DNA from: Halarchaeum grantii
Lineage (GTDB): Archaea > Halobacteriota > Halobacteria > Halobacteriales > Halobacteriaceae
Reading direction: 5' to 3'
Length of the DNA stretch: 64,000 nucleotides
Assembly: GCF_014647455.2 (NCBI RefSeq)
Contig: NZ_BMPF01000002.1
Coordinates: forward strand, 62,001-126,000
Both the position numbers and the translations under genes were made by a program. The notes under the pieces are model-generated. The model was not told the DNA's origin, did no database searches, and saw nothing but the letters and a program-made list of their open reading frames with translations. Shown piece after piece: positions 17,677 through 62,489 of this stretch (positions are counted from its first letter, which is position 1; each line of letters begins with the position of its first letter).

Positions 17677-17760
17677 TCGGCGGGACCGAGCGGAGCGAGG
17701 GCCCGCCGGACGGCGAGCGGGGAGCCTACGACCCGCGAGCGACCCGTGCGACGCGAGGCC
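17677..17760 (+). repeat. Dispersed structured repeat copy after ppc
   Basis: A hairpin immediately follows the ppc stop: left arm 17678-17687 and right arm 17699-17708 pair over ten positions with one A-G mismatch (plus a terminal G-U), enclosing an 11-nt loop GAGCGGAGCGA. Downstream lies a tail of the form GGCGAGCGGGGAG...ACGACCCGCGAG that is nearly the same as the tail of the copy at 57358-57421 (GACGAACGGGGAG...ACGACCCGTGAG). The position suggests a 3'-end stabilising or terminating structure, but the conserved tail implies something more specific. Not a known named element to me. Confidence 0.6.
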
Positions 17761-52856: not shown

Positions 52857-52861
52857 GTTAC

Positions 52862-52955
52862 GCGGTAACTGACCGCAGGGAGGGCACCGCGCCCAGACGA
52901 GCGGGAGCGAACGACCGTGAGCGACACGCGAGCCGCGTCGGACCTGCGGTCCGAC
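52862..52955 (+). repeat. Structured repeat copy between ABC ATPase and permease genes
   Basis: Contains three short perfect inverted repeats: GCGGT-AACTG-ACCGC (52862-52876), GGGC-ACCGC-GCCC (52881-52893) and GTCGGAC-CTGCG-GTCCGAC (52937-52955). The middle part, 52896-52932, reads GACGAGCGGGAGC then GAACGACCGTGAGCGAC and aligns with the tails of the repeats after ppc and mgsA with two one-base gaps. The left end overlaps what would be the natural, overlapping permease start. Confidence 0.5.
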
Positions 52956-56880: not shown

Positions 56881-56973
56881 ACTGCGGTCTTCGACGCGCG
56901 GGGTGAAAAAACGCGGCGGCGCGGGCGTCCGCGCGTCCGCTAGCTTCTTGGGCGTCCTCCGTGGACTGTGCGT

Positions 56974-57357
56974 ATGCGTATCGCACTCATCGCACACGAC
57001 GAGAAGAAGCCGGACCTCATCGACTTCGCGCAGAGCCACGAGGAGCGCCTGCGGCAGTTCGACCTCATCGGCACCGGCACGACGGGCAAGCGCATCATGC
57101 AGGAGACGGACCTCGAAGTGGAGCGCAAGGCCTCCGGGCCGCTCGGCGGCGACATGATGATCGGCGCGGAGGTCGCGGAGGGCGACTGCGAGGCCATCAT
57201 CTTCATCCGCGACGTCCTCACTGCCCAGCCCCACGAACCCGACATCTCCGCGCTGTTGCGCATCTGCGACGTCCACGACATCCCGCTCGCGACGAACATC
57301 GCGTCCGCCGAGCACGTCATCGACGGCCTCGCCGCCGAGATCGGCGCGGACGAGTAA
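56974..57357 (+). CDS. mgsA: Methylglyoxal synthase
   Basis: 127 aa from the ATG at 56974; a GTG two codons upstream also exists. Active-site motifs: ALIAHDEKKPDL (His), IGTGTTGKRIMQ, KASGPLGGDMMIGAEVA (catalytic Asp), FIRDVLTAQPHEPDISALLR (Asp and His). It converts dihydroxyacetone phosphate to methylglyoxal and phosphate (EC 4.2.3.3). Allosteric phosphate loop residues are conserved. The first structured repeat overlaps its stop region, starting 1 nt after the stop. Confidence 0.95.
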   Translation: MRIALIAHDEKKPDLIDFAQSHEERLRQFDLIGTGTTGKRIMQETDLEVERKASGPLGGDMMIGAEVAEGDCEAIIFIRDVLTAQPHEPDISALLRICDVHDIPLATNIASAEHVIDGLAAEIGADE

Positions 57358-57421
57358 CGTGGTTCTGAGCGTGGCGAAGAACCACGGCGAGACGAACGGG
57401 GAGGGACGACCCGTGAGTAAA
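57358..57421 (+). repeat. Structured repeat, unit 1, after mgsA
   Basis: 64 nt. Perfect 9-bp hairpin CGTGGTTCT / AGAACCACG (57358-57366, 57378-57386) with the 11-nt loop GAGCGTGGCGA, then a tail GACGAACGGGGAG...ACGACCCGTGAG shared with the ppc copy. Starts directly after the mgsA stop. Confidence 0.65.
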
Positions 57422-57485
57422 CGCGGTTCCGAGCGACACGAGGAACCGCGAGGAGGCGAACGGGGTGTACGCGGTCCCGACGGGA
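57422..57485 (+). repeat. Structured repeat, unit 2, tandem
   Basis: 64 nt, head to tail with unit 1. Perfect 9-bp hairpin CGCGGTTCC / GGAACCGCG (57422-57430, 57442-57450), loop GAGCGACACGA. Two stem pairs differ from unit 1 by compensatory change (T-A to C-G at positions 3 and 9 of the stem), while the CGAACGGGG block follows 35 nt after the unit start in both. Confidence 0.65.
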
Positions 57486-57553
57486 TGGGGCCGCGAACCG
57501 AACGGTGGAACCGTGAGGAGCGACCCGCGAGCGGCGCGGCCCGAGCGAAGTGA
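57486..57553 (+). repeat. Degenerate third repeat unit
   Basis: Contains GGAACCGTGAGGAGCGACCC, which matches the right arm and following bases of unit 2 with small differences; the left arm and loop appear collapsed to a short ACGGT-GGA-ACCGT hairpin (57502-57514). Ends in GAGCGGCGCGGCCCGAGCGA just before the nth gene's 3' end. Confidence 0.4.
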
Positions 57554-57563
57554 CGGCGCCGCG

Positions 57564-58379
57564 TCAGTCCGCGGCCTCGCTCGGGTCGACGACGTCGCCG
57601 GTGGCGGGGTAGACGCCGACCTGCTCGCAGCAGTCGGCCATCGGGCAGGCCTCGGGGTCGTCGAGGCACGCAGGCGCGCGCGCCGTGCAGAAGTCGCGGC
57701 CGAACTGGATCATCGCCGTGTGTCCGAAGCCGCATTTCTCGGCCGGGAGGTCGGCTTCGATGGCTTCGCGGACGCCCTCGTGGTCGGCGTCCGGCGGCGC
57801 GAACCCCATGCGGCGCGCGATTCGGTGGACGTGCGTGTCGACGGGGAAGACGCCGTCGCGCCCGCCGGCGAAGAGGAGGACGCAGTCGGCGGTCTTCGGC
57901 CCGACGCCCTTCATGTCGAGGAGGGCGGCGCGAACCTCCTCGTAGTCGGCGTCCCGGACGAACTCGTCGAACGCGTCGGCGCCGCCGTACTCCGTGCGGA
58001 CGCGCTCGGCGAGCCTGATTAGCGTCTCCGACTTCTGGTTGTAGAGGCCGGCGGCCGAGATGGTCTCGGCGAGGTCGGGCTGGTGGGCGTCCGCGAGCGC
58101 GTCCGCGAGGTCGCCGTCCCCCTCGCCGTAGCGCGCCATCAGCGAGTCGTGGGCGGGCTGACTGGCCTTGTCGGAGGTGTTCTGTGAGAGGACCGTGCGG
58201 ACGAGGCACTCGAAGGCGTCCCGGCCGCCGTAGGTCTTCTGCCAGTAGCGCTCGCCGAGGCGGTCGACGACGCGCTCGACGAGCGGGGTCTCCGGGTGGT
58301 CGCCGGACGCGAAGGCGCGCTCGGTGCCGCCGCCGGCCGCGCCGCCGAAGATGTTCTCGGCGGGTTCGTCGTCGCTCAT
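57564..58379 (-). CDS. nth: Endonuclease III, DNA glycosylase/AP lyase
   Basis: 271 aa. After a 35-residue acidic N-terminus: ECLVRTVLSQNTSDKASQPA (about 57-76), helix-hairpin-helix LLDMKGVGPKTADCVLLF (about 151-168) with the catalytic Lys, FPVDTHVHRIARRMGF (about 176-191) with the catalytic Asp, and a [4Fe-4S] region CTARAPAC then CPMADCC. Cluster spacing is Cx6Cx6Cx4-5C, with a longer second gap than the x2 of E. coli Nth. Removes oxidised pyrimidines in base excision repair. Convergent with mgsA and its repeats. Confidence 0.94.
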   Translation of the reverse strand: MSDDEPAENIFGGAAGGGTERAFASGDHPETPLVERVVDRLGERYWQKTYGGRDAFECLVRTVLSQNTSDKASQPAHDSLMARYGEGDGDLADALADAHQPDLAETISAAGLYNQKSETLIRLAERVRTEYGGADAFDEFVRDADYEEVRAALLDMKGVGPKTADCVLLFAGGRDGVFPVDTHVHRIARRMGFAPPDADHEGVREAIEADLPAEKCGFGHTAMIQFGRDFCTARAPACLDDPEACPMADCCEQVGVYPATGDVVDPSEAAD

Positions 58380-61892: not shown

Positions 61893-62489
61893 TCACCCCA
61901 TCGAGAGGTCGCCCGCCGCGAGCGCGTCGTTCCACGCCGCGCGCTCGCGGAGCTCGAAGAGCGGCGTCGGTTCCTCGGGCTCCGCGGGGTGCTCGCGGAG
62001 CGCGAGCGACCACCAGCCGACGTCGTGCCACTCGCCGTGCTTGTACCCCATCCGCTCGAAGGTGCCCTCGCGCTCGAAGCCGAACGCCTCGTGAATCGCG
62101 GCGCTCGCCGGGTTCGGGAGCGTCACGACGCCGTAGACGGTCACGTAGCCCTGGCGTTCCAAGAGCGCGAGCAGGGCCTCGTAGAGCGCGCTCCCGATCC
62201 CGGAGCGGTGGGCGTCGCGCTCGACGTAGAGCGAGCTCTCGACCGACCACTGGTAGGCGACGCGCTCGCGGACCGGGCCGGCGTACGCGTAGCCGACGAC
62301 GTCGCCGTCCGCCTCGGCGACGACCCACGGGTAGTCGTCGAGTTTCGAGCGGATGCGCTCGCGGAGGGCGGCGACCGACGGCGGGTCCGCGTCGAACGTG
62401 ATGGCGGTCTCCTCGACGTACGGGGCGTAGATCCGCCGGACCGCGGTCGCGTCCGACGCCTCGGCGAGGCGGAGTCTCACGTCGCTCAT
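61893..62489 (-). CDS. GNAT acetyltransferase, phosphinothricin-acetyltransferase type
   Basis: 198 aa. GNAT motifs: VRLRLAEASDATAVRRIYAP (start), WVVAEADGDVVGYAYAGPVR (about 55-74), acetyl-CoA loop YVERDAHRSGIGSALYEALL (about 88-107, RxGIGxAL), and NPASAAIHEAFGFEREGTFE (about 125-144). This layout matches the PAT/bar and MddA group acting on amino-acid analogues such as methionine sulfoximine. The last 30 residues form a haloarchaeal tail. Last of three co-oriented genes after egsA. Confidence 0.88.
   Translation of the reverse strand: MSDVRLRLAEASDATAVRRIYAPYVEETAITFDADPPSVAALRERIRSKLDDYPWVVAEADGDVVGYAYAGPVRERVAYQWSVESSLYVERDAHRSGIGSALYEALLALLERQGYVTVYGVVTLPNPASAAIHEAFGFEREGTFERMGYKHGEWHDVGWWSLALREHPAEPEEPTPLFELRERAAWNDALAAGDLSMG

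Follow-up and report, generated by a model that had tools for sequence, protein, structure and literature searches.

The array of hairpins behind the methylglyoxal synthase gene (mgsA) of Halarchaeum grantii is probably a local tandem expansion of a dispersed, haloarchaea-wide repeat that resembles the REPs and the Rickettsia palindromic elements (RPEs) of bacteria. The repeat, whose unit consists of two different hairpins, A and B, is real and widespread and, as far as the literature can be searched, undescribed. The array lies in the 64,000-nt stretch of contig NZ_BMPF01000002.1 that we analysed (positions 62,001 to 126,000; hereafter the window), and our best reading of it is a spreading hairpin repeat rather than an RNA element dedicated to mgsA.

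The array and its degenerate relatives occupy the whole of a 206-nt gap (57358-57563) between the convergent genes mgsA and nth, from the first base after the TAA stop of mgsA to the last base before the stop codon of nth (Table 1). An earlier, sequence-only reading of this DNA had described two units 64 nt apart, directly after a stop codon, each beginning with a perfect 9-bp stem and an 11-nt loop. Spacing, stems and loops are exact in hairpins A1 and A2, and the array indeed adjoins the mgsA stop. The paired changes reported at stem positions 3 and 9 are present, with both arms differing between the two units; loop variation is limited to the middle three bases in both, and the conserved blocks said to follow at a constant offset are represented by CGAACGGGG, in register at 57393 and 57457. 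The degenerate third unit corresponds to hairpin A3, and a further, weak fourth hairpin lies near the nth stop. The single hairpin, taken as the repeating unit, did not hold up: the unit comprises hairpin A, a linker of about 8-10 nt and hairpin B, often followed by a short direct repeat and the next unit. When the 231-nt array region was folded as RNA, it scored z = -4.9, and none of 200 dinucleotide shuffles was as good. Perfect hairpins with a 9-bp stem and an 11-nt loop number four in the window, which has 70% GC, and 0-4 in 20 Markov controls; a lone hairpin of this kind is unremarkable here, and the signal lies in recurrence and covariation.

Table 1. Array behind mgsA and further copies in the window (R2, covariance model built from 19 copies; hairpin sequences given as arm-loop-arm).
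Feature	Position	Strand	Basis
Hairpin A, 6 nt past the stop of a PEP carboxylase gene	17679-17707	+	R2, 38.1 bits
Hairpin B of the 17679 copy: GA-GCGGG-GAGCCTACGA-CCCGC-GA	17715-17738	+	sequence
Weak A-like hairpin past the stop of an upstream gene	52861-52891	+	R2, 20.1 bits, E 0.058
mgsA (methylglyoxal synthase), upstream gene, stop TAA at 57355-57357	56968-57357	+	ORF; NCBIfam TIGR00160, 173 bits (above cut-off 146.9)
GAGTAA ending mgsA: copy 1 of the short direct repeat on either side of the A-B unit	57352-57357	+	sequence; flank test
Hairpin A1: 9-bp stem, tandem G.A mismatch, inner G-C; CGTGGTTCT-GAGCGTGGCGA-AGAACCACG	57358-57386	+	R2, 44.1 bits
Hairpin B1: GA-ACGGG-GAGGGACGA-CCCGT-GA	57394-57416	+	sequence
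GAGTAA between units 1 and 2: copy 2 of that repeat	57415-57420	+	sequence; flank test
Hairpin A2: CGCGGTTCC-GAGCGACACGA-GGAACCGCG	57422-57450	+	R2, 41.4 bits
Hairpin A3, degenerate: one G.T pair, 8-nt loop	57470-57495	+	R2, 21.3 bits
Degenerate B-like hairpin ACGGT-GGA-ACCGT	57502-57514	+	fold
Fourth, weak hairpin GCGGCGC/GCGCCGC, loop contains GAGCGAAGTGA	57531-57562	+	fold; R2, 16.5 bits at 57535-57563
nth-like DNA glycosylase gene, convergent neighbour	57564-58379	-	ORF; NCBIfam TIGR01083, 97.9 bits (below curated cut-off 211.7)

Units are about 54-66 nt long. Hairpin A has an 8-9 bp stem, and its apparent loop starts and ends with GA, forming a tandem G.A step followed by a covarying inner pair (G-C, A-U or C-G). 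Hairpin B follows the pattern GA-GCGGG-GA..GA-CCCGC-GA. We built a first covariance model, R1, from three copies, with the inner pair of A treated as unpaired, and a second, R2, from 19. Despite its treatment in R1, the inner pair is formed in 19 of 19 copies (GC in 14, AU in three, CG in two). Across the same alignment, seven of 11 pairs have changed on both sides, and the paired fraction is 94.7% as against 29-44% in slid controls, a rate that is partly by construction for the A stems, which the model chose; the inner pair and hairpin B were not chosen in this way. Arms that vary independently, the observation named in advance by the sequence-only reading as contrary to its claim, are not what the alignment contains: the arms covary, with 31 cells changed on both sides compared with 7.7 in shuffles. 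In hairpin B, loop bases N1-N5 are Watson-Crick in 115 of the 123 exact matches from 293 genomes (shuffled maximum 98), with C-G, T-A, A-T and G-C all represented.

A-stem mismatches set two purines against each other in 30 cases and two pyrimidines in one; the folded form therefore belongs to one strand only, and strand-specific folding is supported. A G.G or A.G mismatch recurs at A-stem position 6 or 7, near the tandem G.A step, in many Halarchaeum copies. Counts of G.U against A.C are 10 to 2 in B stems with at least four Watson-Crick pairs and 8 to 7 in A stems, where there is no G.U excess, and are equivocal between RNA and single-stranded DNA as the folded form.

The covariance search that the sequence-only reading had proposed for the genome and its relatives returned many copies in both. 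Among the best 150 candidates scored, R1 has at least 25 matches and R2 at least 42 in the 3.02-Mb H. grantii genome, the E-values being rough and the weakest matches uncertain; exact hairpin B matches number 23. With the best 150 candidates scored per genome, three congeners each hold at least 11-18 R2 copies, and other genera hold 0-2. The two further copies that the same reading had named in the window fared differently, the one behind the PEP carboxylase gene being a strong match and the other a weak one. At the site orthologous to the former, the stem is paired differently in H. rubridurum, and in 14 groups of copies, each at a site shared by two to four congeners as orthologues, the stems are intact but different. 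Some Halarchaeum copies lie between divergent genes. Elsewhere in the H. grantii genome (G000:C2:604611-604760, locus L110), three A+B units with identical hairpins stand behind a gene in a 60-bp tandem, which is a recent local expansion. At three other loci that still adjoin a stop codon (G002:C1:129064, G002:C1:92971 and G001:C114:2205; L091, L089 and L109), the loop stands the other way round in a stem that is itself intact, as though the hairpin had flipped.

Beyond the genus, 145 of 293 Halobacteriales genomes contain exact hairpin B, as do 47 of 87 genera. A reversed control pattern has no match in those 293 genomes, and hairpin B itself has none in 312 genomes of the same phylum outside Halobacteriales. 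The exact patterns of A and B are absent from the viral contig collection. In the genome contig collection, the exact-consensus A pattern occurs in 14 stretches, of which five are haloarchaeal (three of these from H. rubridurum); the non-haloarchaeal matches, scattered over single bacterial stretches, are taken as chance. Lone exact consensus A hairpins were also seen in Halapricum (L117) and Haloglomus (L122). Rfam has no match above the gathering score in the window, and at the array only a chance hit below threshold.

The relation of the repeat to genes was examined in 60 loci selected across the order by hairpin B alone, with genes called by codon-usage heuristics rather than curated annotation. 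In 24 of these, B follows a same-strand coding stop by 27-49 nt, which places hairpin A next to the stop; a same-strand stop lies within 260 nt in 36. All three stop codons, TAA, TAG and TGA, are adjoined by copies. A further pattern is insertion in-frame inside genes (16 of the 60 loci), in sense orientation in all 16 and in one common phase in 12, where a copy adds about 19 residues, for example SEARSASERTSGEQSDPR. By family assignment, the host genes include trpA, aroC, purK, purC, menB and menE, among others. The insert of PurK corresponds to extra residues relative to PDB 3ax6, and the alignment of TrpA splits into two pieces that flank the insert. At loci L168 and L169, from two genomes (G069 and G050), one and the same in-frame copy occurs in a protein whose domains are repeated and alike; the hairpin loops differ slightly between the two. 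At L198, an in-frame copy in the rarer phase lies near the C-terminal part of what appears by eye to be a 2-oxoacid dehydrogenase E2 catalytic domain.

Empty sites in relatives point to gain of the element. In one congener (G002), mgsA and nth converge across a gap of 17 bp from which the element is absent, and in a genome of another genus (G009) the two genes converge without room for it; by parsimony, the array was therefore probably gained in the lineage of H. grantii. The element is missing after mgsA in all three congeners read. A further case comes from menB in one genus (32 genomes), where empty sites (L235-L238) stand beside filled ones (L225/L230) with an in-frame insert of 57 nt, or 19 codons, at the same point, flanked in the clearest cases by direct repeats of AGACA. 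For 68 Halarchaeum units, the mean similarity between the sequence before A and that after B is 2.53, a value reached by none of 2000 within-genome shuffles (null mean 1.24, maximum 1.93); GAGTAATGC is an example of flanks that match on both sides of a unit. The flanking repeats are short and variable (3-9 bp) and absent in 33 of the 68 units, and tandem duplication could be an alternative source of them.

The sequence-only reading took the covariation to imply selection on the folded form, either as RNA or as a cruciform or protein site. The fold and its covariation stand. A need to maintain it locally is not supported, given copies that are dispersed, absent between mgsA and nth in a congener, in-frame in enzymes and between divergent genes. 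A structure needed for copying or mobilisation is no worse an explanation than a local RNA function, and the RNA or cruciform reading may be right, but the data do not demand it.

Sense orientation and exact adjacency to stop codons would suit a functional 3'-UTR RNA element that stabilises the mRNA 3' end, aids termination or binds an RNA-binding protein and is kept by selection on the transcript, whereas the copies translated within genes (16 of 60 order-wide) and those between divergent genes would not. Such selection would also agree with the covariation, which extends to orthologous sites, and with the purine-rich loops and purine mismatches found on the sense strand only (the array is 64.6% purine, which only 0.2% of windows reach), but the element is lacking after mgsA in all three congeners. 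As to termination, a haloarchaeal hairpin gave 59% termination in vivo, yet the mapped intergenic termination motif of haloarchaea is a T stretch (PMC7237163), and 57358-57563 has no T tract, T running to at most 2 bases and A to at most 3. Weighing these points, we regard a 3'-UTR element as unlikely.

Arms could also change together, with no selection on folding, through template-switching correction of imperfect inverted repeats. This would account for orthologous stems that turn over fast yet remain paired and for the loops inverted in intact stems (G002:C1:129064 and others). However, the tandem G.A step and, near stem position 7, the G.G/A.G mismatch have been conserved rather than corrected, the inner pair past the G.A step covaries, and dispersal, empty sites and in-frame copies are left unexplained, which makes template switching a quite improbable account. 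A chance or compositional artefact of the 70% GC genome, which could appeal to single perfect 9-bp hairpins not being rare here (four, as against 0-4 in the Markov controls), is refuted by covariation above every shuffle and by a reversed control without a match where the element occurs in about half of the genomes.

For the spreading repeat that we favour, the following mechanism may be envisaged. One strand folds into two hairpins, their Watson-Crick segments split by tandem G.A (and often G.G) mismatches, and this folded single strand, as DNA or RNA, would be the form that some enzyme or repair process recognises and copies. Insertions would persist where they are harmless, either behind a stop codon or in a protein loop in which the sense strand is read as a hydrophilic peptide. 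At mgsA, the element would be a passenger that also places stable hairpins in the 3' UTR. Several observations count against this reading. No mobilising enzyme was found, and in particular no IS200-type Y1 transposase in three genomes that carry the repeat (G002, G008 and G016). A fixed target sequence does not account for the exact adjoining of all three stop codons; candidate explanations are an insertion bias linked to translation or transcription, selection for harmless sites and a real 3'-UTR role. The shortness and variability of the flanking repeats and the want of a G.U excess in A stems also weigh against it. Finally, orthologous sites hold stems that are intact but different, a hint that selection acts once a unit has been inserted or that gene conversion replaces it.

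The idea that an IS200/IS605 Y1 transposase is the obligatory mover is not supported. Matches to PF01797 (Y1) occur in 186 of 293 genomes and are absent from those same three carriers; a diverged RAYT may have escaped detection, and the alignment of PF01797 to RAYTs is only partial (PMC6006769). Contig C9 of the H. grantii genome (G000) holds two Y1_Tnp (IS200-type) matches, one full-length and one partial (L126 and L127), and R2 finds nothing within 1.5 kb of either gene. We tentatively suggest, as a possibility we would not bet on, a haloarchaeal mobile hairpin system independent of Y1 transposases that recognises a strand-specific two-hairpin G.A fold, copies it in sense directly behind stops and in this way also writes a standard hydrophilic peptide, about 19 residues long, into core-enzyme loops.

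Literature searches by sequence (GAGCGAAGCGAG and CGAGCGGGGAG) returned only unrelated papers, and we found no published description of the haloarchaeal A-B repeat in the open-access literature, where an account in a subscription journal could be missed. Protein-coding palindromes have been described as recurrent in Rickettsia, and intragenic REPs in some other bacteria. With a counterpart that ranges over an archaeal order and includes a metabolic enzyme whose empty and filled sites are clean, both the spread of repeats that lack a transposase of their own and the tolerance of enzymes to standard inserted peptides become testable. The copies can confuse the annotation of gene ends and domains in haloarchaea, and covariation alone in haloarchaeal intergenic DNA is no proof of a regulatory RNA.

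Each known system shares only some of its defining features with the repeat, which we therefore file as a member of none. The intergenic T-stretch terminators of Haloferax volcanii resemble the array in their 3' intergenic location, and a few of them have upstream hairpins (PMC7237163); unlike them, the array lacks a T tract and is therefore not a usual haloarchaeal terminator, and the repeat also occurs in coding sequence. Terminal inverted repeats of the MITE type are absent, A and B being separate hairpins with no inverted repeat joining the ends of the unit. Closer in taxon are the PATEs of Haloquadratum walsbyi, haloarchaeal two-palindrome elements (PMC3119063), which share with our repeat the lack of a transposase and two near-terminal palindromes; their 52-bp terminal-only forms are near the A-B unit in size. 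PATEs, however, derive from IS605-type ends and make no target duplication, whereas the haloarchaeal repeat has short flanking repeats that exceed shuffles, including AGACA at the menB insert.

RPEs, which are CGTC-tagged repeats, offer the model for in-frame insertion (PMC10969869). Like them, the haloarchaeal palindromic repeats lie between genes and in-frame in unrelated protein-coding genes, where they are read as a conserved peptide, as the 16 in-frame sense copies illustrate. RPEs differ in taxon and sequence and in their length of about 150 bp; many haloarchaeal copies stand directly behind stops, and a CGTC tag is not apparent in them by inspection.

The GTAG REPs of bacteria (REP/BIME/REPIN) are mobilised by RAYT, or TnpA_REP (PMC3733652, PMC2817692 and PMC6006769), and where the REP and RPE literature names the hosts of GTAG and CGTC repeats, the passages concerned list only bacterial phyla. 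The haloarchaeal unit is archaeal and has two different hairpins in direct order, in contrast to inverted pairs: units run head-to-tail, and head-to-head or tail-to-tail pairs are not predominant. It has an inner tandem G.A step and no constant GTAG tag; of the copies scored, 9 of 30 intergenic ones and none of 8 in-ORF ones have GYAG immediately ahead of A, and where present it overlaps the stop TAG. RAYT was not seen in several carriers. In other respects the two are alike. According to PMC3733652, bacterial GTAG REPs lie mostly downstream of genes, can supply a TAG stop and occur inside genes; the haloarchaeal copies, too, are short hairpins with 6-9 bp stems, present many times over, in tandem or convergent gaps downstream of genes, often abutting or supplying a TAG stop, sometimes in-frame in genes and in clusters of tandem units. 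With hairpins of 23-31 nt in at least 42 R2 and 23 exact B copies, the repeat conforms to the description of REPs as palindromic hairpins of 20-40 bp in many copies, and some Pseudomonas REPs in a table of PMC2817692 even have the same GA-GCGGG..CCCGC-GA foot as hairpin B.
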